From Eubacterium sp. (GTDB taxonomy: Bacteria > Bacillota > Clostridia > Oscillospirales > Acutalibacteraceae): a DNA stretch of 63,152 nucleotides. Below, piece after piece: positions 44,034 to 56,857 of the stretch. Location of the stretch: assembly GCA_017463985.1 (NCBI GenBank), contig JAFUEH010000012.1, positions 1 to 63,152 on the forward strand, in the 5' to 3' direction. The translations under genes were made by a program, and so were the position numbers. The notes under the pieces are model-generated. The model did not search any database. It was not told where the DNA came from and saw only the letters and a program-made list of their open reading frames with translations. Each line of letters begins with the position of its first letter. The stretch's first letter is position 1.

Positions 44034-45176
44034 TCACACCCGTGACATCAGAACGACTGTTTCCACATGCTTCGTGAAGGGGAACATATCAAAGCCGCGG
44101 ATCGTTTCGGCACGGTAGCTGTGCTGCGTCAGGTAGTCCAGATCGCGTGCGAGCGTCACCGGATTACAGGAGATATAGACGACCTTTTCCGGTGCCAGGC
44201 GGCATACGGCCTTCAAAAACTTCACCGTCGCACCGGCACGCGGCGGGTCCATCAGCAGCACGTCCGGTGTCTCCCCGTCCTGCGCCAGCGCCGTCAGGTA
44301 CTCCCCTGCGTCACCGCACTGAAAGCGGATGTTGCTCACGCCGTTCAGACGGGCGTTGGCGACCGCGTCACGCACGGCATCGCGGTTCAGCTCCACGCCG
44401 ATCACCTGTTTCGCTTTTTCCGCCGCAATGATGCCGATCGTGCCGGTACCGCAATAGGCGTCAAACAGCGTTTCGCTGCCGGTCAGCTGCGCTGCGTCGA
44501 TCGCCGCGCGGTACAGCCGTTCACACTGCACCGGATTCACCTGATAAAACGAGGCCGGCGAAATACGGAAGCGACAGCCGCACAGCACATCCTCGATCGT
44601 CCCCTTGCCGTAAAGCACGCGGCTCTGCTCGCCTAAAATCAAATTGGTTTCATAAGGGTTGATATGCTGCACCACGGTGGTGATTTCCGGATGCTCCCGA
44701 CAGAGCGCCTTGACGAAATGATTCCGTGACGGCAGCTGCGAGGACAGTGTTACCAGCACCACCATGATCTCACCGGTCGCAAAGCCGCGGCGCACCAGCA
44801 CGTGCCGCAGCACACCGGTATGATAGCGCATATCGTACGGCTTGATCTTAAAGCTGTCGGCCAGACGGCGCACCGTCTGTACAATGCGGTCGCACTGTAC
44901 ATCCTCGATCATACAGCTGTCAACCGGTACGATTTTTTGCGTCGTGCTCTGGAACACACCGGCCGCACACCGGCGGTGCTTATAATCCCAATAAAACGCT
45001 GCCTGAACCTTGTTGCGGTAATGCGTTGGCTCCTCCATACCGACGATCGGCTGCACCGGCGCATAACCGGACAGCATCCCCTCCAGCTTTCGTTGCTTAT
45101 ACTGCAGCTGCTGCTCATACGTCAGGTTTTGCAGCTGGCAGCCGCCGCATTTTTTATAAACCTTACACTGTTCCAT
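44034..45176 (-). CDS. rlmD: 23S rRNA (uracil-5-)-methyltransferase, RlmD/RlmCD (RumA) type
   Basis: 380 residues. N-terminal [4Fe-4S] cysteines CKVYKKCGGC with a further Cys downstream. The SAM site is FDAYCGTGTIGIIAA, followed by LLMDPPRAG and the catalytic Cys in VVYISCNPVTLARDL. It ends FTKHVETVVLMSRV. The N-terminal TRAM domain of longer homologues is missing, a common short form. AAGGAG precedes the ATG. Fragments resembling its C-terminus lie 2 kb away beside the 118-bp repeats; rumA-type 3' ends are known insertion sites of integrative elements in streptococci. Confidence 0.92.
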   Translation of the reverse strand: MEQCKVYKKCGGCQLQNLTYEQQLQYKQRKLEGMLSGYAPVQPIVGMEEPTHYRNKVQAAFYWDYKHRRCAAGVFQSTTQKIVPVDSCMIEDVQCDRIVQTVRRLADSFKIKPYDMRYHTGVLRHVLVRRGFATGEIMVVLVTLSSQLPSRNHFVKALCREHPEITTVVQHINPYETNLILGEQSRVLYGKGTIEDVLCGCRFRISPASFYQVNPVQCERLYRAAIDAAQLTGSETLFDAYCGTGTIGIIAAEKAKQVIGVELNRDAVRDAVANARLNGVSNIRFQCGDAGEYLTALAQDGETPDVLLMDPPRAGATVKFLKAVCRLAPEKVVYISCNPVTLARDLDYLTQHSYRAETIRGFDMFPFTKHVETVVLMSRV

Positions 45177-45203
45177 AGCTTCTCCTTACCGCAGCAATGA
45201 CGG

Positions 45204-47663
45204 TTAATAAACGACGATAAAGATCACCCCACCATCGCCGTCCAGGAAGGCGTTCAGATGACCGCCGTCATCTGATTCATACTTGTAAATCGTAATATCG
45301 GTGCCGTTATACTGGGCAATGTTGTCCAACCCGATCTTCTCCAGCAGGAGCAGCCCCAGCTCACCGATTTCAATCTTGTAGGACTGCTGTGTTTTCGGCT
45401 CAGAATATACTCTGCGTATAAATGTTCCGTCGCTGAGGCCGGATATGTACGAGCGGTTATATACCTCGTCGCCGGTGATCAGCGCTCCCTTCACCACGCC
45501 GTTATCCATAAAATAGATCGCGCCGTCCGAGAAGCACTGCAGATCATACTGCCCGTCGAACGGGAGAAAGTCCATCAAGCTTTGTACGTCATAGTTGATC
45601 TTATTCACAATACCGTCGATCGTCGACTGGAGGAACCGATCCTTCAGCTTTCCGACCAAGTACGAATTGCCGGTATCCTTCTTGCGCTGATAAAACGCGT
45701 CCTTCAGCTGCTGCTCGGTATAGGCGTCACCGATCTGTACGCCGCCGAAGTCACACTCGCTCAGAGAGAACGGAACCGGCTCCGGAAATTGGAAGTACAC
45801 ATCTTCAAACAGCGTATTCTGGTAACCGAATTCACCGATATCCATAGAAAAGCTGCTTGTACCGATCTTCAAGCCGACATCCGCACGCAGTGTCACCTGC
45901 GTTCGTCCCTGCAAAAAGTAGGTAAACGACGCGTCCTTTAGTGCAAAATCCTTGATCGGATGGTATAAGGTACTGGATAGCTCCAGGTCGCCGCTGGTGG
46001 CAAATTCTACGTCAAATACATCGATTGCCAGCTTCGCCGGAATTATGGCGCAGATGCAAAGACCGATGTCCACGCCAATACCGACGGTAATATCGGCGTT
46101 ACCCTTGACGGCAAAATCGAGGTCCGGACTGTCCACATCGCCGGTGGCGTCCGGCTCGCCCAGAACAGGATTCGGGTATTTTGAATTTTTCAGCTGCAGG
46201 TAGAGCTGGTTATTCTCGTCGCGGTCAAGGCGCATAAAGCCGGATTCACTCAGCTCCACCGAGGCCTCCAACTCGCCGTAAACCGTCACGCACAGCTGGA
46301 TCAGAATACCAAAGCTGACCTTGCTGGCCTTGTTCCGCGCATTTTTGATAGTCGACCCCTCACAGCCGATAATAAAGGCACCGAGCGCAAAGCGCCCCGG
46401 CTCCAGGTCAGAGGTGTCTTTAATATCGACAATGCCGAACTTCCCGACATCCTTATTCGCCCACGGCAGGCTAAAGTCGCCGCCGCCCGTATACTTTACG
46501 GAGATCTTTTGGTCGCAGATAAATCCGATATCGAACACATTAGCGGAGGGATTATTTTTATCGTAATGCAGATTGGGGCGAATGGCAGGGTCAGTCAGCG
46601 TCAGCTTAGCGCTGATTTCGCTTTTCTCTTTGCCGTGCTTTGACATATCGACTGTGCTTTGATCATCCTTCTGCGTCGTCGTCTGACTGTCCTGATCGCT
46701 ATCGCTCCCGTCGTCACCGTCATCATCGTCGTCCTTCGTCAGGTCGCGGGTATACTTAATGGAAATTTCTTTGCCGATCAGCTGATAGCCCGCCAGCTGT
46801 GACTGCTTTTTCGTTCCCTTATAGTTATAATCAATGCTATTTTTATCAAAAAAGGTGATCTTGCTGTCATTGCCGATGCCGGCAGCGGCAGAACGGACGT
46901 CGGTCGGAACATAGTTATCCAGCGTCACACCCTCCTCCGGAATAAAGGCCACCTGCGTGGGCGTCACACCGTCCGGTGAAATATCGATCCGGTCAAAGAC
47001 CTCCTCCAGCGTCGGCACAGTAAAGGACACATACGTGCTGCCGATCGCCGTCACCTTGCCGCTGAAGCCCATCACAAAGGTCGGCAGCTTGGCGTTTTCT
47101 TCCGGCGGAACAACAAACAGATCGCCCTCCGAAAGATCGGCAAAAAAGTCAGGCAACTGTTTATATAAAATAGTGTAGATGCCGTCCTGCTCGGCGTAAT
47201 AAATATCCTCTACGTTCTTTTCGAGGTCCTCATCCTCGGCAACAACAGCAGCGTCGTTAAAAACGATCTCACTGCTCGTTTGACCGGTCGCGGAGACCGT
47301 CGCCAGCTTAGAGGAGCCGTTCTCACCGATCATCAGCACCGACGTCACCACGATCGCTACCACGCACAGGCAGGCAACGGCCGCCACGAGGATCTTCCGC
47401 AGCTTGCCGTTATTGCCGCCGGGCAGCGACGGGCGCGGGCGTTGACTTTTTTCACGGTTCCCTTTTCCGCGCTTTTCCTTCCCGTTTGCAGCAGGCTGTG
47501 ACGGCGCGGCAGCACCCATCCCGAACGGCGCTGTCGGGTCGAACGGCGCGGCAAAATTCGGCGCGGCCGGTGCAGCCGGCGCACTTTCGTTTTGCCGATG
47601 GCAATAAGGACATTCGTTTAAGCTTTCATCATACATCAGGCCGCAGCCGGTACAAATTTTCAT
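45204..47663 (-). CDS. Large zinc-ribbon membrane protein, function unknown
   Basis: 819 residues. A cytoplasmic zinc ribbon at the very start (CTGCGLMYDESLNECPYCH), a Pro/Ala- then Lys/Arg-rich linker, one transmembrane helix (about 89-112, ILVAAVACLCVVAIVVTSVLM) and a large extracytoplasmic part. The latter has beta-rich segments and an acidic low-complexity stretch (KDDDDDGDDGSDSDQD, near 310-330). No catalytic motif is seen. The single zinc ribbon plus TM layout recurs in clostridial membrane-stress proteins such as those at 28-33 kb. AAGGGGAG precedes the ATG; 27 bp from rlmD. Confidence 0.7.
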   Translation of the reverse strand: MKICTGCGLMYDESLNECPYCHRQNESAPAAPAAPNFAAPFDPTAPFGMGAAAPSQPAANGKEKRGKGNREKSQRPRPSLPGGNNGKLRKILVAAVACLCVVAIVVTSVLMIGENGSSKLATVSATGQTSSEIVFNDAAVVAEDEDLEKNVEDIYYAEQDGIYTILYKQLPDFFADLSEGDLFVVPPEENAKLPTFVMGFSGKVTAIGSTYVSFTVPTLEEVFDRIDISPDGVTPTQVAFIPEEGVTLDNYVPTDVRSAAAGIGNDSKITFFDKNSIDYNYKGTKKQSQLAGYQLIGKEISIKYTRDLTKDDDDDGDDGSDSDQDSQTTTQKDDQSTVDMSKHGKEKSEISAKLTLTDPAIRPNLHYDKNNPSANVFDIGFICDQKISVKYTGGGDFSLPWANKDVGKFGIVDIKDTSDLEPGRFALGAFIIGCEGSTIKNARNKASKVSFGILIQLCVTVYGELEASVELSESGFMRLDRDENNQLYLQLKNSKYPNPVLGEPDATGDVDSPDLDFAVKGNADITVGIGVDIGLCICAIIPAKLAIDVFDVEFATSGDLELSSTLYHPIKDFALKDASFTYFLQGRTQVTLRADVGLKIGTSSFSMDIGEFGYQNTLFEDVYFQFPEPVPFSLSECDFGGVQIGDAYTEQQLKDAFYQRKKDTGNSYLVGKLKDRFLQSTIDGIVNKINYDVQSLMDFLPFDGQYDLQCFSDGAIYFMDNGVVKGALITGDEVYNRSYISGLSDGTFIRRVYSEPKTQQSYKIEIGELGLLLLEKIGLDNIAQYNGTDITIYKYESDDGGHLNAFLDGDGGVIFIVVY

Positions 47664-47771: not shown

Positions 47772-47807
47772 ATAGGTCAAGCCGGGAGCGGCATAAGATA
47801 TAGCGGT
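47772..47807. repeat. Left 36-bp direct repeat of the island (attL candidate)
   Basis: ATAGGTCAAGCCGG, G in this copy, then AGCGGCATAAGATATAGCGGT. It is the same as 56131-56166 apart from that one base. It lies between the zinc-ribbon gene and the island's last terminator. Confidence 0.8.
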
Positions 47808-47835
47808 CAAAAAAGGCTCATTTCACAAAACAAAA

Positions 47836-47870
47836 GGCAAAAATGTAAGAGCCCGTCTCACATTTTTGCC
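47836..47870 (-). terminator. Terminator at the left end of the island operon
   Basis: GGCAAAAATGT and ACATTTTTGCC form an 11-bp stem extended by three more pairs; TTTTG follows on the minus strand. The GTCTCAC core of the dispersed hairpin family is inside. Confidence 0.7.
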
Positions 47871-47909
47871 ACACAGATGATTATGTATTCACTTTTGTTT
47901 AGCCAGCGC

Positions 47910-48224
47910 TTATTTGAATTGGCCGACCTTGCTGTTATTGATGACTGCCGCTTTTCTGGACAAGCTTTTATCGACATTCTGATAGCTTCTTGCAGCGTTA
48001 TTACACACATTCTGAATACTGTTGATTCTGTTTTTAATATCATTCAGATTATTATAAACATTATTCAATCTGCCGGTAATATTGGCTCTCTGCTTAATTT
48101 GATTATCCAGCGTATTGTTAACATTATTCACCTTGTCCCTTGCACTTTGAACGCTCTGCTTAGCGGAATCACACCTTCCTGACGCATTCAAAACCGAAGA
48201 ACAATTAATCTTTGTACTTCCCAT
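47910..48224 (-). CDS. Small helical protein, possible Esx-like partner
   Basis: 104 residues, almost wholly alpha-helical with Asn/Ser-rich heptads (VQSARDKVNNVNNTLDNQIK, LNNVYNNLNDIKNRINSIQN). It has the size and two-helix layout of WXG100/LXG-chaperone proteins but no WxG turn. Last gene of the island. A role as a small secreted or chaperone protein of the type VII system is inferred from size, helicity and context only. Confidence 0.6.
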   Translation of the reverse strand: MGSTKINCSSVLNASGRCDSAKQSVQSARDKVNNVNNTLDNQIKQRANITGRLNNVYNNLNDIKNRINSIQNVCNNAARSYQNVDKSLSRKAAVINNSKVGQFK

Positions 48225-48236
48225 AACCGCCCACCA

Positions 48237-48551
48237 TTAAACTCTCGGCTGTCCGCAATTTGGGCAAAATCTCTCGTTTGCCGGATATTGATGTGCACAC
48301 TTAGTACAGAATACAACACCACCGTTTTGCGGAGCAGGATTAGCATTTCGCGGAGTAAGATTAGCATTTTGCGGAGCAGGGTTGACATTTCGCGTTTCCG
48401 GTACAGGCGGTGCAGTGACTACCTGCTGTTGATTGGAATATCCCTTTTCCGCTTTACCACTTGACTTTTTTAATGTCATAATTAAATTAAAAACAGAGAC
48501 TGCAATTAAAATAGCCAGTAAAACATAGATAATGATAAATTCTATATACAT
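48237..48551 (-). CDS. Membrane protein with C-terminal zinc ribbon
   Basis: 104 residues: a transmembrane helix at the start (IEFIIIYVLLAILIAVSVFNLIM), a linker with repeats of the type NPAPQNANLTPRNANPAPQN, and a zinc ribbon, FCTKCAHQYPANERFCPNCG, at the end. GAGGTG precedes the ATG. It lies 12 bp before the small helical gene in the island operon. The partner bound by the zinc ribbon is unknown. Confidence 0.7.
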   Translation of the reverse strand: MYIEFIIIYVLLAILIAVSVFNLIMTLKKSSGKAEKGYSNQQQVVTAPPVPETRNVNPAPQNANLTPRNANPAPQNGGVVFCTKCAHQYPANERFCPNCGQPRV

Positions 48552-48603
48552 ATTTACACCTCAGCTCTCATCCAAGGGACTTGCGCCCCTTGGATGTTAT
48601 TAT

Positions 48604-50231
48604 TTACTCTTCGTCGTCCTTTTCCTTCTTCTTTTTCAGGATGATGAACAACACGATACCGCCAACAACCAATACAATACCTGCTAAGGTCGGATAAAAG
48701 GCATACGGATTGTTAACAAATCTGATGAACCAATTATTAGATACCAGCAAGTTATCTGCTTTCAACGCAAAATCAGCCGTTTCAGTGCCGTTTCCGGCTT
48801 TGTCGCCTACCTTAATCACCAGCGACTTCTTGGAATTGCTCGCCGGCAATGTAAACGTTACCTGATATGCAGTATTATCGTCCGTAGTTGTGATATCTGT
48901 TTCCTGATCAATTTTTACCGCATCGCCGTCATATTGAACAGAGAGCGTACTCAAATCGACCGCATCCAGGCGGTAACTGCTTATGATCGCGGTCACCGTA
49001 GCAGTTTTGCCGTCGGTGCTGAAGGCGTCGTCCTCGATTTCACATGGATTAGAAACAATCTCCTTATGCGTATTATCTTTGAATTTTTCATTCTGAAGCG
49101 AAGCGTTCATATCCGCAGTCGGTGGAGCAGTAAGCACAACAAATTTCAAGATTTTGCGTGTTTCCTCAGGGTAGTTTTCCACTGCTTCGTTGTTGAGGTT
49201 GGTATTCTTAGCCTCATCATGCGTCGTAGCCAGAATTTCATAGACGCCCTGTTGATTAAACAGATCATCATTCAGCAGTAGATACTTATATTCCTTTACT
49301 GCATACGCGTCCTTTTCCGGATCAGGCTCTATCACCAGATAGTCCTTATCCTTTTCCAGCTCAATTCGCTGTTGATCATGCTGCGATTCATTCACATAAT
49401 CTAAAAGCAGCGTTGTCTCTTTAGTATCGATAAAATCGCAGTTGATCTCCGTAAACAATGCGCTATCCTTATCATCTTTGTCAACATCTTTTTTGACAAA
49501 GGGCTTGCACGAACGTTAATTGCCGCAGTGTCCTTCTCATCGTCGATCGTGACATCAACGGTGTTATCTTCAGAAGGCTGCTCTCCGTCAATCGTTACAG
49601 TACCGTCATTTTCGATCGTGACAACAATCGTCTGTACCTTCAGCGCTAATACCAGCGCTGTCTCAGCTGTTTCATCGCCGGCAGTAACCGTCACAGACGC
49701 CGGTGCATAGTTTTTAGCAGTCGCTGAAACGGTGTAGTTTTTCCCTTCCACACCGTCGAACGAATAGGAAAGGTCTTTGACCGTAACTGCGGTTTCTTCC
49801 CCGTCACACTCAGCAGTAACTGTAACTGCATTCTTATCCGCTTCTGCTACGCCGCTGATCGTACCACTAACGGTCACGATGCGGTCAAGGTGAATTTCAG
49901 TACCGGTGGATTCTTCGCCAATCACGAGGTTTTTACTACCGTCTGCATATCCGTCTTTATTTACGGTAAGCGTATAGTCACCGATCGGAACATCCGTGAA
50001 AGCTACCTCACCGGCCGTATCGGTCTTTTCTGTCGTACCGTTCAGCTCTACCGATGCATTTTCAATGGGGTTTTCCTCTTTGTCCAACACGGTCACAACA
50101 TAGCTAGCCACCGTTTCTCCCTCTGCGTATACCACAGAGGAAGTGTGAATCGGCAATACTGAAAGCATCAGTATCATGGCCATCACAAGGGATATGAGTT
50201 TCTTTGAGACCACTTTAACATTTTCCATCAT
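48604..50231 (-). CDS. Exported surface protein split by a -1 frame change (candidate recoding)
   Basis: Frame 0 (from ATG 50231, GGAG seven bases upstream) encodes a signal peptide, a carboxypeptidase-regulatory-like domain (YVVTVLDKEENPIENASVEL) and a second beta domain, and stops at 49401. The -1 frame continues from about 49488 to 48604 with more domains and a C-terminal membrane anchor (LAGIVLVVGGIVLFIIL, then KKKKEKDDEE). The two frames meet at A-AAA-AAG (49494-49488), read in frame 0 as TCA AAA AAG. A -1 slip there gives a continuous product of about 542 residues. The alternative is loss of one A from a seven-A run. Confidence 0.7.
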
Positions 50232-50682
50232 TCTTTTTCTCCTCTAAATCTTTACTGTGAATATATTTAAAAACTTTGCCGTTCAGCGCCAAATGCATCT
50301 GAAGCGCAAAAGTCATTGCCGATAATACCATCGTCTGTGCCGTCACACTGCTATTTCTGCTTAAAAACACCACAAACAACACAACACTGACAATGAGTCC
50401 GGCATCTGCCACAACGGCCGGCAGCGCTGAAAAGAAACGTACAGGATTGAGCATACCCGTTATCTTTTTATCCTTTTTCAGGCGTCGGAACAAATACAGC
50501 TTGATGATCCATCCAATCAACAGGCTTAACCAAAACAAGGCAGACGAAAGATAAGAAATTAGTATCACCGTTTTGCTTTCGCTTCGGTAATCGGTAATCA
50601 AGGAAAAAATGATCGATAAGGAAGCAAACAGCATCAGCGCCATGGATATATCATCCAACAATCTCAGCTTACCGTATCTCAT
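50215..50682 (-). CDS. Four-TM membrane protein, function unknown
   Basis: 155 residues with four hydrophobic helices (ALMLFASLSIIFSLI, VILISYLSSALFWLSLLIGW, LPAVVADAGLIVSVVLFVV, MVLSAMTFALQMHLAL) and a basic cytoplasmic loop, LFRRLKKDKK. Its ATG overlaps the previous gene by 4 bp and its end overlaps the next by 17 bp, so translation is coupled across three genes. It may be a membrane component of the type VII locus, but it matches none of EsaA, EssA or EssB by eye. Confidence 0.65.
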   Translation of the reverse strand: MRYGKLRLLDDISMALMLFASLSIIFSLITDYRSESKTVILISYLSSALFWLSLLIGWIIKLYLFRRLKKDKKITGMLNPVRFFSALPAVVADAGLIVSVVLFVVFLSRNSSVTAQTMVLSAMTFALQMHLALNGKVFKYIHSKDLEEKKNDGKC

Positions 50683-51476
50683 TCAATTACCTCGTCTGTG
50701 TTAATGAAGGTTTCCTCCTCCACAATATCAAAAGAAACATTCGTCGCTGCCTGTTCAGACAAAACGGTCGTCCCTGCTGCCTCCTCTTGCAATACAGAAG
50801 TCGCTCCAACATCCTCGGAAAGAACATCCGTTGCCGCCTCGTCCATTGACAAAACATCAGTAACAATCTCATCATCGCTCAGCACATCTGTTGCCGCTTC
50901 ACTATAGCCATCGTTGTTGAGCACATCTGTTGCCGCTTCGCTATAGCCGTCGCTGTTCAGGACGTCCGTCGGCATTTCAGAAATAGCATCACTCAAAACA
51001 TCGGTGTCTGCTTCCGTGTCATACACAGAAGCCTGCGCTCTTTGTGTAGCTCCGCCGCTGAGCTTGTCCGTTAAATTAATGCTGTCTAAAGAAGTAGTAC
51101 CGTCAGAGGCAACGGCTTTAGAGGTGCTTTTAAAGGTTTGCACCGGCTCACCGGGCGGCATAGATCGGGAGATTTTTCCGGTACCCCTTGTAAGGTTATG
51201 GGATTTATGCGCCTCCCTTTGCATCTCCGCACGTGCCTGTGTACTATCGATCATACTGTCGATCGCAGCGTTATGATTAGACCGCGGCTTTTTAACACCA
51301 TAGCTCATATTCGTCGTTTGATTACGGATTTGCTCAATTTGCTTTTGAGCCGTTTTACCGCTTAAATCACCGATAACAGCAGCAATATCGTTGGTGAAGA
51401 ATACGGTGATGCTGACGGCTAAAAACGCAAAGGCAAATACAAAAAATACTAGCGCAAGGATTTGAAATACCGACAT
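50679..51476 (-). CDS. Single-TM protein with eight TxVL repeats
   Basis: 265 residues. An N-terminal transmembrane helix (ILALVFFVFAFAFLAVSITVFF) is followed by a hydrophilic, probably disordered cytoplasmic tail. From about residue 150 it carries eight spaced copies of a Thr-x-Val-Leu motif in acidic context: TDVLS, TDVLN, TDVLN, TDVLS, TDVLS, TDVLS, TSVLQ and TTVLS. This resembles the phosphothreonine motif that FHA domains bind in GarA/OdhI-type proteins. EssC proteins of type VII systems carry FHA domains at their N-terminus. GGAGGTG precedes the ATG. Confidence 0.7.
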   Translation of the reverse strand: MSVFQILALVFFVFAFAFLAVSITVFFTNDIAAVIGDLSGKTAQKQIEQIRNQTTNMSYGVKKPRSNHNAAIDSMIDSTQARAEMQREAHKSHNLTRGTGKISRSMPPGEPVQTFKSTSKAVASDGTTSLDSINLTDKLSGGATQRAQASVYDTEADTDVLSDAISEMPTDVLNSDGYSEAATDVLNNDGYSEAATDVLSDDEIVTDVLSMDEAATDVLSEDVGATSVLQEEAAGTTVLSEQAATNVSFDIVEEETFINTDEVIE

Positions 51477-51478
51477 TA

Positions 51479-52006
51479 TTAATCACCTCCGTACTCACTA
51501 TTTATTTGTGTTTCCAGCATAGCTTTCCATTCATTAAGATTTTTTTGTTCCTCTTGTAATAATCCTGAAATGTCGTCCAGCTTCACAATATTTAAGATCT
51601 CACTCTTTGTGTAATTTTGCTTATGCAGATAAGCAACCACATTTTTCTGTCTTAAAACATAGAGGGCAGCTTGATAGACATTATACTTTAGGTTATTGTC
51701 AGTACCGTCATGCGCGATCGCAATACTTGATTCAAATGCCTGCATTGATTCTGCAAATTCTTTGGCATTATTATCTTTTAGCCAAATATTAACTTTATTA
51801 TTGAATGAAATAATATTGTACATCAATTGTGCAGTTTCACGGTCAGGATTTTCGTTTTCCGTAGCCTTCTCCAACCACGGTTCTGCCAATGATATTCTGG
51901 TGGTATCGGAATCAGGATAAATATACAAATAGAAACGTGCAATCTGATAAGATAACGACGAGTATTTGTCCGGCGGCATTTTTTTCCGGATTTCCTCATT
52001 TCCCAT
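51479..52006 (-). CDS. Soluble helical protein, function unknown
   Basis: About 175 residues, strongly helical with a TPR-like spacing (YSSLSYQIARFYLYIYPDSD, LAEPWLEKATEN), no signal peptide. The ATG at 52006 is preferred: AAAAGGCAG lies nine bases upstream and it overlaps the lipoprotein stop by 11 bp. A longer frame to 52102 would overlap that gene by over 100 bp. Two bases separate it from the TxVL gene. Unknown component of the island's system. Confidence 0.62.
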   Translation of the reverse strand: MGNEEIRKKMPPDKYSSLSYQIARFYLYIYPDSDTTRISLAEPWLEKATENENPDRETAQLMYNIISFNNKVNIWLKDNNAKEFAESMQAFESSIAIAHDGTDNNLKYNVYQAALYVLRQKNVVAYLHKQNYTKSEILNIVKLDDISGLLQEEQKNLNEWKAMLETQINSEYGGD

Positions 52007-52451
52007 CGACATCTGCCTTTTTTGCATTTTGATTGGCTTCTTTTTTGGACGACAATAAACCGTTTTCGATAGCACACGCAATAATTTCGTCTTCCGTTGC
52101 ACTGTCGTTGTCCAACAGTGTTGACGCTCTTACAATTGTTTCAGCAATAAAGCCTTTCTTCGCCTTAAAATCTTCATAGAAGTAGGGAGAATCCTGATGA
52201 TCTAAGACGCCCCATTCATAGCTGGATTGAACATAAGAAAAAATGGGGTTATCTGATTTTATGTCGCGAAAATAATTAGCATCACTTTGGTATTCATCTA
52301 AGCCCATCTTTTCGGCTAAAGCCGTAATCCATGCGCCACGCGTTAAAGCGCCGTCATTAGTATTTGATGAACAGCCGGAAAAGCCTACAGAAATACTGCA
52401 TAACAGCGAAATTGTTACGATGATAGCGACTATTTTTCTAAAACATTTCAT
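51996..52451 (-). CDS. Lipoprotein with SLH-like domain
   Basis: 151 residues. Signal sequence IVAIIVTISLLCSISVGFSGC has a lipobox ending in FSGC. The mature part has an S-layer-homology-like pattern (RGAWITALAEKMGL, YFRDIKSDNPIFSYVQSS, KKGFIAETIVRAS). It is probably anchored to the outer leaflet. AGGGGAG precedes the ATG. First gene after the WXG100 group, likely a surface component of the locus. Confidence 0.7.
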   Translation of the reverse strand: MKCFRKIVAIIVTISLLCSISVGFSGCSSNTNDGALTRGAWITALAEKMGLDEYQSDANYFRDIKSDNPIFSYVQSSYEWGVLDHQDSPYFYEDFKAKKGFIAETIVRASTLLDNDSATEDEIIACAIENGLLSSKKEANQNAKKADVDGK

Positions 52452-52527
52452 TGGTTTCTCCCCTTATATAATATTGTATAATGTATATGTAAAACACCGT
52501 TATCGGCATATTGTTTTCTAGTCAAGT

Positions 52528-52553
52528 GGCAATGCGGCTATTGCCGCATTGCC
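52528..52553. terminator. Hairpin after the WXG100 genes
   Basis: GGCAATGCGGC and GCCGCATTGCC form an 11-bp stem with a TATT loop. T-run lies only on the plus-strand side. On the coding (minus) strand it may instead protect the abundant WXG100 mRNA or reduce read-through to the lipoprotein gene. Confidence 0.5.
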
Positions 52554-52560
52554 TTTTTGT

Positions 52561-52893
52561 TTAAGCAAAATCTGCTAAAGCAGATGAATCAATTTGCTGA
52601 GTAGCATTACTCTTTATAGTGTCTTCTGTCGTATCATATCTTGTAACAGTATTTTCAATAAAGCTAACGTAACCCTGTACAGCCTCTTTATATGCAGTAT
52701 ATGTTTTGTTATAAAACAAATCCATCTGTTCCTTTGCTTGGTTAGCTGCATCGCCGGTCCAAGTGGAACCTACAAGTGAAGTAATCTGCTTGTATATAGC
52801 GTCTAATACAGATGATAACGTATCGTTCTGTGTAGCAATGACGCCCTTAGCAGCGGTTAATTCGCTTGTTGTCATTTTCAAGTTGCCAGCCAT
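52561..52893 (-). CDS. WXG100-family protein 3
   Basis: 110 residues in the two-helix hairpin layout. The turn is STWTGDAAN (WxG) and the C-terminal export motif YxxxD/E is present in RYDTTED. It differs more from the other two than they do from each other. GGAGGTG precedes the ATG. Such proteins are secreted as dimers by the EssC ATPase; here that ATPase is truncated, so export would need a copy elsewhere. Confidence 0.88.
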   Translation of the reverse strand: MAGNLKMTTSELTAAKGVIATQNDTLSSVLDAIYKQITSLVGSTWTGDAANQAKEQMDLFYNKTYTAYKEAVQGYVSFIENTVTRYDTTEDTIKSNATQQIDSSALADFA

Positions 52894-52918
52894 TTATTTC
52901 ACCTCCGTTTTCTTGAAA

Positions 52919-53224
52919 TTATCTTGCCAGCTTCTGAGCTTCTGCTTTCGTATCAGTTTCTGCCTGCTTGTAGTCCTTTGATGCTTTCTCTAAGAATGCA
53001 ACCAGCTTCTCGAAAAACGTATCCATCGCTTCAAAGTCATTTTTGAATGTAATGACACGATCATGGAATTCCTGATTATCATCGCCCTCCCAAGCAGCGT
53101 CAATTTTGGTAAATTGATTAAACACCGCCTGATACGCTGTTTTATAATCGTCAGCTTTATTTCTAATTGTGCTGACAGCGGTATCAATTTCACCGGTGTT
53201 AACCTTTAATCCGTTTGCAGCCAT
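52919..53224 (-). CDS. WXG100-family protein 2
   Basis: 101 residues. WxG turn in IDAAWEGDDNQEFHDRVITF, YxxxE signal in DYKQAETDTK, C-terminal LAR. Closely related to the neighbouring WXG100 protein (IDAAWDGDDHQEFYERVITF), so the pair arose by tandem duplication and may heterodimerise. AGGAGGTG precedes the ATG. Confidence 0.9.
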   Translation of the reverse strand: MAANGLKVNTGEIDTAVSTIRNKADDYKTAYQAVFNQFTKIDAAWEGDDNQEFHDRVITFKNDFEAMDTFFEKLVAFLEKASKDYKQAETDTKAEAQKLAR

Positions 53225-53290
53225 TTTTTCACCTCCTTCTCGTTAAAATTAATTAATATAGATAAAAACCCAATTAATTGTCACGTAACA

Positions 53291-53593
53291 TTATCGTGCC
53301 AGCTTATTGGCGGCTTTTTCTGTAGCAGACTCTGTCGCAAGGTAAGCCTTTGCACTTAATTTCAGATGCGTCGACACTCTGGTAAAGAAGGATGTCATAT
53401 TAAGGAAGTCTTTTTCAAACGTTATTACGCGCTCATAAAACTCCTGATGATCGTCGCCATCCCACGCTGCATCAATGCTTTTGAAGGAATTGAAAACCGC
53501 CTTATAAGCACCGGTATACTCATCATTTAAACGATCAATTTCACCGGCAATGCGTTCCATCTCGCTCGATGATGTTGTCATAGAATTTGCCAT
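53291..53593 (-). CDS. WXG100-family protein 1
   Basis: 100 residues with the WxG turn AAWDGDDHQ, a YxxxE signal in AYLATESATEK and C-terminal KLAR. First of three WXG100 genes. AAAGGAGGAG precedes the ATG; 13 bp after the YukD-like gene. Confidence 0.9.
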   Translation of the reverse strand: MANSMTTSSSEMERIAGEIDRLNDEYTGAYKAVFNSFKSIDAAWDGDDHQEFYERVITFEKDFLNMTSFFTRVSTHLKLSAKAYLATESATEKAANKLAR

Positions 53594-53606
53594 AAGCTCC
53601 TCCTTT

Positions 53607-53858
53607 TTAAATAATCATTAGTTTTGAACCGTTTTTGACGCCGAGCTCGGTTGCGGTAAAATTCAGGTTGATAATATCCCCTGTACGACGGTCGCACAGG
53701 ACAGCGGTATCATCCGGGAGATACCGTCCGTCCTCCGACTCGGCGATTGCCTTTTTGATCAGCTCGAGGACTTTATACATCTGAACCGATCTAGGTATTT
53801 TCATTTCATATCTGTTTCCGGAGGCGGGAACATATACTTCAATAATGATTTTGTTCAT
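53607..53858 (-). CDS. YukD/EsaB-like ubiquitin-fold protein
   Basis: 83 residues beginning NKIIIEVYVPASGNRYEMKIP and ending VKNGSKLMII, the beta-grasp pattern of the YukD (EsaB) family that regulates type VII secretion. No C-terminal di-glycine. GGAGGAAGT precedes the ATG, which overlaps the EssC fragment by 4 bp. Confidence 0.88.
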   Translation of the reverse strand: MNKIIIEVYVPASGNRYEMKIPRSVQMYKVLELIKKAIAESEDGRYLPDDTAVLCDRRTGDIINLNFTATELGVKNGSKLMII

Positions 53859-54736
53859 ACTTCCTCCTCCGTTGTGAGTAATTTCGTCAGCGTCGGCTTG
53901 CCGCGGCTGAGCAGATAACCAAAGTCATTTCCGATTTCTTCATAAAAGCTGTTGCTGTGCTTATTCGCCTTCAAGCTGTATTGGTCTGCAAAGCCGTCGC
54001 CAACAAACAAGCCCTCATTGGCCTTAATATGCGCTTTATACCATTCGGTATAAGAATTCGCTGCATAATATGACTGGCCTTCAAAGAAAAGGAAGTGCAC
54101 CTTGTACATAGCCTTGCCCTTTTGCAGCATCGCAAACAGCCGTTCCTTCGCTTTGTCACCCAAGCGGTTGGTGAGCTTTTCAATACCAATCACCACAATA
54201 AAGCGCTGTTCAAACTGATCCAAGAAGGATTCATCCATATTAGCGGCCTTGTAGCCATTATTACGAGCCAACACATCCTCAAAGATTTCATCAACAGCCG
54301 CATCAAAATCAGCTGTAATTACCTGAGAATGAAGCTCAGCGTTCTTACACCAGCCCTCACAATCGAAAATCTGAACGCGACACTGTTCCAGCAAATCTAC
54401 TGCTTTCACAAATTCTCCGACAAAAGGCTCTAACACAAACGAATCATTGGCCATGATCGGATAGATATACTTGTTCTTCATGTCGATGGAAACCGGCTTC
54501 ACTGAACGCTTATCAATACCTACCGGCACCGTCAGCTCGCCTACCGCCTCGCGCAGATCGTCGAGCTTCACGAAATCAGGAAGGACAGGAATCCTTCTGG
54601 CATGAGACGTTGATCCGGCATCAGTCTCAGCACAGTAAGCTCTGATGAACTCATACTGATCCGCACAGTCATGACAATACGCAGTCTGGAATTCATATAC
54701 CTTGCCAAGCTGGATGATACTGATTAAGCCTCTGCC
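53855..54736 (-). pseudogene. C-terminal remnant of the type VII ATPase EssC/YukBA
   Basis: The frame is open from 54736 (a TAG lies just upstream) to 53855, about 293 residues against well over 1,000 for a complete EssC. GRGLISIIQLGKVYEFQTAY and RRIPVLPDFVKLDDL match the region entering the third ATPase domain. The domain that follows (VPVGIDKRSVKPVSIDMKNK) has no Walker A glycine-lysine loop, as is usual for the degenerate last domain. FHA, transmembrane and the first two ATPase domains are gone. The GTG at 54571 could start a 238-residue product, but it has no good ribosome binding site. Confidence 0.8.
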
Positions 54737-55407
54737 CTATTGTTGTACACATCCTGCAAACACACTGCTAGCTTTCTGGGAATTGGAATATCCCGCCAAG
54801 ACGATTTTGTTTTTGGCGTGTCAATGACGTATTCCGTTTTTCCGTCATTATTAATGCGCGATACGGTCGCATCAATATGAAGGATTCGCCTTTTGAAGTC
54901 TACATTTTTCCATTCTAATGCACAGATTTCGCCAATCCTTAATCCGGTATATAAAGCCAGAAGAATACCAAGACCGGTTTCGTCAATGTTGTTCGTTAAG
55001 TACTCTGTGAGTTTACGATAGTCTGCCCGACTCAATAAGTGAAAGCTAGGATTGATTGCAGACGGTTTATAGATAGGATTTTTCAAATCAGCACACCAAT
55101 TTTCATTTGCTGCAAAATGTAAGGCAGAGCTGATAATCAGTGACATTGTACTGACATAGGATGGTGCCAACGGTGTATGATGATCAATGCTTCCGGACCG
55201 TAGCTTATCGTTCAAAAAACTGTTTATTTGCATCGCATTTAAGTCGCTGAGAAAACAGTCGCCCAAATTGGGAGTAATATGTTTTTGGATAATATAGTTG
55301 TATTTGTCATAAGTTGTATGCTTGATCCTCACTCGATTTGATGTCAGCCACATTTCCAGTGCATCTGCGAAAGTCATCCGTTCGGTACATACATTCTTGG
55401 TTACCAT
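54724..55407 (-). pseudogene. Tyrosine recombinase/integrase, C-terminally truncated
   Basis: 227 residues from ATG 55407 (AAAGGAG eight bases upstream). The SAM-like core-binding domain (about 10-105) and the first half of the catalytic domain with TGLRIGEICALEW (catalytic Arg) are present. The protein stops after IPIPRKLAVCLQDVYNN, before the HxxR and Tyr motifs. Its last four codons, RAEA, are read from EssC DNA in another frame, so the gene was cut and joined to essC. It cannot be catalytically active alone. Confidence 0.85.
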
Positions 55408-55585
55408 AGCGATTCTCCTTTTTTTGATATGATTTAGCGCTTTAATACATAAAATTACAAATTTTGACAAATTGTGTAGAATATCTTGATTTTTATTTTG
55501 AATTAGATATAATAATTATGAATAATTTTGTGTAGAAGTATTAGTTCTACGAAATATTTTACTTTGTTTTTTATTAAAAGTGAAT

Positions 55586-55620
55586 AAACCCTCAGTTTGA
55601 ATAATTCAAACTGAGGGTTT
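55586..55620. terminator. Perfect bidirectional terminator after the XRE gene
   Basis: AAACCCTCAGTTTGAA (55586-55601) and its exact complement (55605-55620) with a TAA loop, flanked by A- and T-runs. Confidence 0.92.
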
Positions 55621-55624
55621 GTTT

Positions 55625-55939
55625 CTATATATTGTTTTGTTCAAGAATGTCTTTAACTGCTTTTATGATATCACAAACGATCTTTCGTTGCCGTTCTGTA
55701 GTATCTGCAAATAAGTCAACGTGCTTCTCTTGACCGACAAGCAAATTGTCCATTCCCACTTCCAGTGCATTGGCGATGGATATCAGCGCAGACAGACTGG
55801 CTTGTTTTTTGGCATTTTCAATATATCCGATATAAACTGCTGACAGATCTGACCTTTCTGCCAGCTCCGCTTGTGTCATCCCCTTAGCGTTACGTATGGC
55901 TTTGATGTTCTTTCCTATTTTTTTATAATTCGCTTCCAA
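55625..55939 (-). CDS. XRE-family transcriptional regulator
   Basis: 104 residues starting at TTG (AAAAGGAG ten bases upstream). Helix-turn-helix at about 8-63: IGKNIKAIRNAKGMTQAELAE, then SDLSAVYIGYIENAKKQASL. A short helical C-terminus follows. Located beside the integrase remnant at the right end of the island, it probably controls the element or its secretion genes. Confidence 0.88.
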   Translation of the reverse strand: MEANYKKIGKNIKAIRNAKGMTQAELAERSDLSAVYIGYIENAKKQASLSALISIANALEVGMDNLLVGQEKHVDLFADTTERQRKIVCDIIKAVKDILEQNNI

Positions 55940-56130
55940 ATGTGTTCTCTCCTTTTTGTAATGCTAACCTCAACAATACCGAAAAGAACATAGATAATGC
56001 AAGATAATACCGTTATTTCAACGAAAATCTCATGATTGCGGCAAGCTAATCTGGCAAGGAATGGAGAATCAATAAGTATAATATTTGTAATCACAAGTAA
56101 AACAAAGCACTAAAACGCGTCATATTGTGC

Positions 56131-56166
56131 ATAGGTCAAGCCGGCAGCGGCATAAGATATAGCGGT
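56131..56166. repeat. Right 36-bp direct repeat of the island (attR candidate)
   Basis: Same as the left repeat except one C for G. It ends within the extended Shine-Dalgarno region (GGTGAT, 56164-56169) of sigK. The segment also contains CATAAGATA, which fits a mother-cell sigma -10 element, but this would place the start site almost on the start codon. Confidence 0.8.
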
Positions 56167-56173
56167 GATGAAA

Positions 56174-56857
56174 ATGATCTCAGCTTTACTGACCCTGCTC
56201 GGCACGAATCTGTTGCTGCTGATACTGCACATTCAAAACTACTCCTCCTTCCCAAAGCCGCTTTCCGCCAAGCAAGAGCGTGAATACCTGGAGCGTATGG
56301 CAGGCGGCGACACACAGGCACGCGACATTTTGATCGAACGGAACCTGCGCCTCGTGTCGCACATCGTGAAGAAATATTACTCCAAAACCAACGACGCCGA
56401 CGAGCTGATCTCGATCGGCACCATCGGGCTGATCAAGGGCATTGACTCGTTCGATTACACCAAGGGCACCAAGCTGGCCACCTACGCTTCGCGCTGTATT
56501 GAAAACGAGCTGCTGATGCACTTTCGCTCGCTGAAAAAGGAGAGCGGCGATGTGCTGATGGGCGACGCGGTAGACACGGACAGCGACGGTAATCCGCTCA
56601 CGGTAGAGGACACCCTTGCCGATGAGCACGACCTGGCCGAGGCTTATGAAAAAAAGGCGCAGTGGGCGCAGGTCAAGCGCTATATTGAAACGATGCCGAA
56701 CGAACGTGACCGGACCGTTCTCATTCTGCGCTACGGCCTGAACAATCAAAAGCCGCTCACCCAGCGCGAGGTGGCGGCAAAGCTCGGCATCAGCCGGTCG
56801 TATATTTCCAGAATCGAAACAAGGCTTCTCAAGGACATCCGCGACCGCTTTCAGTAA
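56174..56857 (+). CDS. sigK: Sporulation sigma factor, SigK type with pro-sequence
   Basis: 227 residues. The hydrophobic N-terminus MISALLTLLGTNLLLLILH is the pro-sequence of pro-sigma-K, followed by IQNYSSFPKPLS and the conserved YLERMAGGDTQARDILIERN. Region 2 has ISIGTIGLIKGIDSF and YASRCIENELLMHFR; region 4 ends with the helix-turn-helix REVAAKLGISRSYISRIE. Sigma-K drives late mother-cell genes of sporulation. The coding region is uninterrupted, unlike B. subtilis where skin splits it. The ATG at 56174 is favoured by GGTGAT just upstream; a GTG (56165) and an ATG (56168) precede it. Sigma-E is the main alternative. Confidence 0.88.
   Translation: MISALLTLLGTNLLLLILHIQNYSSFPKPLSAKQEREYLERMAGGDTQARDILIERNLRLVSHIVKKYYSKTNDADELISIGTIGLIKGIDSFDYTKGTKLATYASRCIENELLMHFRSLKKESGDVLMGDAVDTDSDGNPLTVEDTLADEHDLAEAYEKKAQWAQVKRYIETMPNERDRTVLILRYGLNNQKPLTQREVAAKLGISRSYISRIETRLLKDIRDRFQ

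Follow-up and report, generated by a model that had tools for sequence, protein, structure and literature searches.

The sigma factor gene sigK of a Eubacterium sp. genome (GenBank assembly GCA_017463985.1; 2.58 Mb, 41 contigs) lies directly beside an island of type VII secretion genes. Both are on contig JAFUEH010000012.1 (C10), the whole of which (63,152 bases) was analyzed here and is called the window. Very probably, an element with a tyrosine integrase and type VII genes inserted at the sigK core promoter, duplicated that promoter, and later decayed to a fixed remnant. Five observations read directly from the sequence carry this interpretation: the repeats that enclose the island, the conserved promoter position, the truncation of the integrase and EssC, an intact colinear counterpart, and an uninterrupted neighborhood in relatives.

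Direct repeats and the sigK promoter

Two 36-bp direct repeats, different at one base (35/36 identical), enclose the island; by our own estimate, such a pair would arise by chance in 63 kb with a probability of <1e-10. A pattern search across the genome (≤3 mismatches) found the 36-mer at these two places only, and a dispersed repeat was therefore rejected. Guanine-plus-cytosine (GC) content is 41.6% between the repeats and 53.1% in the remaining window, with the shift in the composition profile at about the repeats. The window has a single tRNA gene, which is 30 kb distant, and the exact repeat sequence was not found in the viral contigs searched. Direct repeats at both boundaries are as expected of an integrative element, and these two presumably served as attachment (att) cores. 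To the right, sigK is whole, a single 230-aa open reading frame (ORF) above the cutoff of NF004471 (for TIGR02846, 271.7 bits against a cutoff of 298.65). An earlier note on this DNA had described the repeat pair and the A+T-richer DNA between them, an island with type VII genes immediately ahead of sigK, and a complete sigK coding region, and had proposed the dispersed-repeat check; each of these points held up. Its distance of 8 bp from the right repeat to the sigK start fits if counted to the A of ATG 56174, with seven bases between.

The right repeat opens with ATA (56131-56133), which forms its left edge 17 bp ahead of CATAAGAT (56151-56158), and it ends inside the sigK Shine-Dalgarno sequence, after the GGT of GGTGAT. 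For comparison, sigK upstream DNA was taken from 56 congeneric loci, and two with <60 nucleotides (nt) upstream were dropped. GTGAT occurs at the same place as in the window in 44 of the 54 others, and these 44 made up a promoter profile from which the 10 without it were excluded. Among the 44, G-GTGAT is invariant, GAAAATG follows in nearly all, and a -10-like CATAnnAT precedes GTGAT at a fixed distance (C in 24, A in 30, T in 28, and A in 34 of the 44, with T at -7 in 42). The window has GCATAAGATATAGCGGTGATGAAAATG at the conserved place, all of which is covered by the repeat up to GGT. The two repeat copies scored 10.3 and 10.0 by this profile, ranks 6 and 8 over both strands of the window (best score, 11.9), inside the congeners' leave-one-out range of -2.8 to 20.4.

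The accessible part of a study of C. difficile (PMC3789822) gives ATA as the -35 motif for sigma-E and AC for sigma-K, with very similar -10 motifs, and calls a spacing of 16 to 18 bp classical; CATATAAT, the -10 of one of two sigK promoters there, is assigned to sigma-K. Because the two factors share a -10 in C. difficile, this box alone cannot separate them. With a sigma-E-like -35, a -10, and the start of the Shine-Dalgarno sequence, all at the position conserved in congeners, the repeat itself would seem to be the core promoter of sigK. Since the three features lie inside the repeat and the insertion duplicated the core promoter, sigK keeps a copy, and excision would regenerate the same one; the empty state would differ only in the DNA upstream of the -35. 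Displacement of the sigK promoter region, as supposed in the earlier note, is thus not supported; the note had missed the coincidence of repeat and promoter. Each repeat copy would presumably be active as a promoter. The left repeat (47772-47807) reads as a second sigma-E-like promoter, directed rightward and antisense to the island genes.

A passive effect, in which the new sequence ahead of the -35 takes away or supplies activator sites (e.g., for SpoIIID) and so alters the strength or timing of sigK expression, is unlikely, although it deserves some credence. When scored against what we take to be the SpoIIID consensus, the island DNA upstream of 56131 has one SpoIIID-like box (9/10) at -67, but another 9/10 box, at -33, is part of the repeat and so is retained. 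Such boxes occur upstream of 19/53 congeneric sigK genes versus 15.1 ± 2.8 in shuffles, which is not significant, and the box was rejected as a conserved sigK promoter element. In favor of such an effect, SpoIIID controls sigK in C. difficile, according to the same part of PMC3789822.

Truncation of the integrase and EssC

Protein families were assigned with Pfam and NCBIfam, with scores compared to family cutoffs. The listed island genes (Table 1) all point leftward, in the order (right to left) XRE regulator, tyrosine integrase remnant, EssC C terminus, YukD-like protein, three WXG100 proteins, and smaller proteins of hydrophobic, surface, and zinc-ribbon types. The integrase remnant lies 0.7 kb from the right repeat, i.e., near one island end. 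Congener G007 has the same order intact, with an HTH_3 protein, a 365-aa integrase, a 1,524-aa EssC, YukD, and three WXG100 proteins; identity of the island proteins to these is 78% for YukD, 62% for EssC, and 52 to 65% for WXG100.

The island integrase aligns only with the middle of its 365- and 370-aa homologues. Their N-terminal region, presumably the DNA-binding arm, and their catalytic C-terminal region have no counterpart in the island protein, and the missing ends were not found anywhere else in the window. Its end meets the EssC frame at ~54740, where EssC begins at residue 1238-1239 of 1524 (G007 numbering) and matches residues 1238 to 1523 of G007 EssC. The EssC piece scores 45.4 against a TIGR03928 cutoff of 778.4, consistent with a fragment. 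A search with G007 EssC did not find the remaining EssC in the genome, which is rated 97% complete; two further matches are partial (frames of 890 and 647 aa) and have FtsK/SpoIIIE-type ATPase regions. Judged from these frames, the island is an internal-deletion remnant. Since the integrase ends and most of EssC are missing, autonomous excision and type VII secretion are unlikely, and mobility and secretion have both presumably been lost; with only the last fifth of EssC present and no other EssC found in the genome, a functional type VII system was rejected. The earlier note had named the recombinase, the XRE regulator, and the WXG100/YukD/EssC-type genes, correctly as to family, and had missed both truncations. 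Of the excision that it proposed, now or ancestrally, the ancestral part is plausible, following from ancestral integration, and this integrase probably recombined in the past; timed excision today is not supported, the recombinase being of the tyrosine type, not the large serine type of skin, and lacking its catalytic C terminus.

It is very improbable that the integrase-EssC junction is an assembly artifact and that the real island is intact. The division of the genome into 41 contigs would allow it, but the missing 1,237 EssC residues were not found elsewhere, integrase C-terminal regions elsewhere belong to other, separate integrase frames, and the surface protein gene has a separate frame break. 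Mobilization in trans, in which a different integrase encoded by this genome would act on the repeats that remain, is at least as hard to credit. Other long-frame integrases of the family are encoded (C32:151210-152304, 39%, 404-aa frame; C31:58457-59539, 34%, 405-aa frame), and the repeats are still 35/36 identical, but the genome holds no further copy of the 36-bp site, and a cognate site is usually recognized by one integrase only, which counts against this route. Near relatives of the island integrase were sought in named genomes, with one distant match (29%, a Clostridiaceae metagenome-assembled genome), and in viral contigs, with none.

EssC was above the family cutoff in just 22 of 196 genomes and is therefore accessory DNA; some match was present in 157/196, and the others among the matches listed have one ATPase region only, mostly in ~800- to 900-aa frames, and are SpoIIIE/FtsK-like. 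In G068, the integrase lies beside a complete EssC in the other orientation, with an HTH_3 protein between. No convincing att repeats were found for the related elements of G007, G068, G077, and G078. In G007, the intact type VII island begins at the end of a 467-aa FeoB-type ORF (C59, 4630-6033), which may represent a different integration target.

Two of the three WXG100 proteins of the window are above the Pfam cutoff, and all three are below that of NCBIfam TIGR03930. The surface-type gene (48604-50231) encodes carboxypeptidase-regulatory/Ig-like repeats and a weak LPXTG-like end below the cutoff, and the tail of its first ORF is odd. Over 86 aa (31%), the ORF at 51996-52451 is similar to the first part of a 792-aa ORF of the G007 island.

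Table 1. Features of the sigK locus and the adjoining island, with window positions
Feature	Positions	Strand	Details
Left chromosomal flank	44034-47663	-	trmA-like methyltransferase and 819-aa protein
trmA-like methyltransferase	44034-45176	-	trmA near sigK in five congeners too
819-aa protein	45204-47663	-	Zinc-ribbon-like N-terminal start (by eye); no Pfam match
Left 36-bp direct repeat	47772-47807	+	Presumed attL core, apparent second copy of sigK core promoter; profile score 10.3, rank 6
Island, probable remnant of type VII-carrying integrative element	47808-56130	.	GC 0.416 versus 0.531 outside
Coiled-coil/WXG100-like protein, 104 aa	47910-48224	-	Weak, below cutoff: PF06013 E value 0.014 among other coiled-coil families
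104-aa protein	48237-48551	-	Hydrophobic start (by eye); C-terminal zinc ribbon PF13240
Surface-type protein gene, probable frameshifted pseudogene	48604-50231	-	Overlapping ORFs 49401-50231 and 48604-49458
Hydrophobic protein, 155 aa	50215-50682	-	No family over cutoff
265-aa protein	50679-51476	-	N-terminal hydrophobic stretch (by eye), repeats; homologue in G068 type VII locus, 31%
Two overlapping ORFs	51479-52451	-	51479-52102 and 51996-52451; no Pfam match
WXG100 protein A	52561-52893	-	PF06013 41.5 bits; 65% to G007
WXG100 protein B	52919-53224	-	PF06013 36.2 bits; 60% to G007
WXG100 protein C	53291-53593	-	PF06013 24.5 bits, below cutoff 27.3; 52% to G007
YukD-like protein	53607-53858	-	PF08817 23.3 bits, below cutoff 27; 78% to G007
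EssC C-terminal remnant	53855-54739	-	~290 of ~1,520 residues; TIGR03928 positions 1068-1293/1296
Tyrosine integrase remnant	54724-55470	-	PF00589 positions 26-86/172 only; 3' end meets EssC remnant
XRE-family regulator	55625-55939	-	PF01381
Right 36-bp repeat	56131-56166	+	Presumed attR core, apparent sigK core promoter
sigK, intact	56165-56857	+	230 aa from GTG 56165; likely start ATG 56174

sigK loci and skin-type elements in congeners

Five congeners (G033, G009, G086, G099, and G080) have an uninterrupted trmA-corA-sigK neighborhood and no island (CorA by Pfam in G033). In the window, trmA is also to the left, and the next gene is that of the 819-aa protein in place of CorA. None of the 56 congeneric sigK loci matched integrases, EssC, YukD, or large serine recombinases over an upstream reach of at least 1,390 nt in 51 of them, beyond which a more distant element would escape; a lone 28-aa match to the island XRE protein (locus L064) falls within the sigK match itself. 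Among the genomes compared, the insertion at sigK was seen in this genome alone.

Searches of 79 congeners with SigK found a match broken near residue 115 (split, half, or duplicated half) in 13. Ten have two separate halves (G014, G022, G023, G024, G030, G034, G078, G079, G092, and G097) and two have the 5' half only (G088 and G089). In G031 (C30), a near-continuous sigK (residues 1 to 113, then 122 to 230, with a stop reported inside) is accompanied by a second 3' half ~40 kb off on the same contig, possibly an imprecise loss or a duplication of a skin element. A single match was found in 56/79, including two with an internal stop, one that a contig end interrupts, and one that spans residues 1 to 198. 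The remaining 10 have a damaged match (G064 and G071), a SigE-like paralogue only (G003, G010, G035, G076, and G085), or no SigK match at an E value of 1e-25 (G091, G095, and G100).

Both sigK halves are on one contig in G024, G078, G092, and G097, and the 3' half is immediately preceded by a large serine recombinase (identified with Pfam PF00239/PF07508 in G078, G092, and G097 and by 94% similarity in G024). The accessible part of PMC5025042 places such a recombinase just before the sigK 3' half in the skin element of C. difficile also, and by analogy these congeneric skin-type elements presumably excise. The element of G078 (locus region C1:99000-134000) is 28.7 kb long and contains EssC above the cutoff (1,197.5 bits), YukD plus two WXG100 proteins that pass the Pfam cutoff, and a complete tyrosine integrase that shares 59% identity with the G007 enzyme; with this full EssC locus inside a skin-type element, type VII genes are physically linked to the rearrangement of sigK in G078. 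Kinase-like proteins (by eye) are also within this element. The element of G024 (C11; 34 kb) has a recombinase 94% identical to that of G078, and the two share their ends, with no DNA similarity found across the type VII part and with different interior cargo. Type VII genes are present in one of the four resolved elements and are therefore variable cargo.

Developmental excision like that of skin, which would reconnect sigK with DNA near 47.7 kb and time its expression, is scarcely credible for the island: the position next to sigK, the direct repeats, and the occurrence of skin-type elements in congeners favor it, but sigK has a whole coding region and a core promoter that falls within the repeat, the island recombinase is a tyrosine-type enzyme missing the catalytic half, and the congeneric elements split sigK near codon 115, the four resolved ones with a large serine recombinase.

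Origin of the island and comparison with known systems

In the origin that we favor, an element that encoded a tyrosine integrase and carried a type VIIb secretion operon, its attP bearing the same 36 bp, would have recombined at an attB formed by the sigK core promoter. Each island end would have received one full promoter, leaving sigK with a complete sigma-E-type promoter, much as tRNA-targeting elements restore the tRNA gene on integration. Later decay would have stripped the integrase ends and the first four-fifths of EssC and fixed the island in place as a nonsecreting remnant.

Several observations weigh against insertion at the promoter and later decay. Five unrelated window positions outscore the two repeat copies, which means that the profile lacks specificity when used alone; the position directly before sigK is the stronger argument for a promoter. 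GTGAT is missing at that spot in 10/54 congeners, and a scripted rule found no -10 in 3/44. ATA at a spacing of 14 to 18 bp occurs in 19/44 only (16 at 16 bp and one at 17), and the -35 is therefore less uniform than the -10. Inverted core arms were sought in the repeat and were weak: imperfect 13-bp arms, close to the center of which the single repeat mismatch sits, match at 9/13, reached by 1.2% of shuffles, and shorter arms are reached by 15 to 28%. The integrase-EssC junction is known from the 41-contig assembly alone. No near relative with an exact empty 36-bp site was found, the 36-mer being absent at ≤3 mismatches from all 197 other genomes (79 congeneric), and whole congeneric SigK matches are just 61 to 72% identical, i.e., from distant relatives. 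The earlier note had looked to island-free relatives for a repeat copy; in these distant genomes the 36-mer itself is lacking, and a homologous sigK promoter sits at the place of the right repeat.

An att site formed by the promoter of a developmental sigma factor would show low-cost entry into a control region, with the promoter brought along, and, combined with the skin-type elements found in this genus, would make sigK a repeated landing zone. Rather tentatively, the genus may tie type VII elements to sigK in two independent ways, by a self-restoring promoter att site here and by a type VII locus within a skin-type element in G078. If so, sporulation in G078 would excise the type VII genes from the mother-cell chromosome and the spore would keep them; skin would gain a secretion cargo, the developmental loss or retention of which would become testable. 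The earlier note knew of no described link between a type VII locus and sigK, and the open-access literature, covered as titles and abstract openings of the papers listed (most subscription literature is outside this scope), likewise yielded no report of one or of skin-borne type VII cargo; in the literature covered, itself accessible in part, no element with a duplicated att core that is a sporulation promoter was found.

Like skin of B. subtilis and C. difficile (PMC5025042, accessible part), the island is a mobile element that is located at sigK in a spore-forming bacterium and bears recombination sites at its two ends. Skin, however, splits the coding region and is excised by a large serine recombinase, whereas here the promoter is the apparent site, the gene is whole, and the integrase is a broken tyrosine-type enzyme; no large serine recombinase was present among the island ORFs tested, the tyrosine integrase remnant being the only recombinase. 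Membership in skin was rejected on two tested features, the continuous sigK coding region and the recombinase class. Among type VIIb loci (ess/yuk), the island is alike in its EssC C terminus, YukD-like protein, and WXG100 proteins and unlike in having EssC cut to its last fifth. The island fits the tyrosine-integrase type of integrative element, except for its incomplete enzyme and for the exact empty site, which was not observed. Islands located at promoters or gene 5' ends are the nearest precedents. TnGBS-type elements also prefer promoter regions, but they use a DDE transposase and insert upstream of sigma-A promoters, and no promoter in a long att core was seen in the accessible part of that work (PMC3942029). 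Integrase islands at a host gene 5' end or promoter are described in the accessible part of PMC4129442, namely SpyCI at mutL and the islands at the uvrA promoter; among them, SpyCIM5 has a defective integrase and is fixed in place, and its downstream gene is still expressed. Integrated SpyCI interrupts mutL expression, whereas the sigK island appears to carry the promoter inside its duplicated att core.

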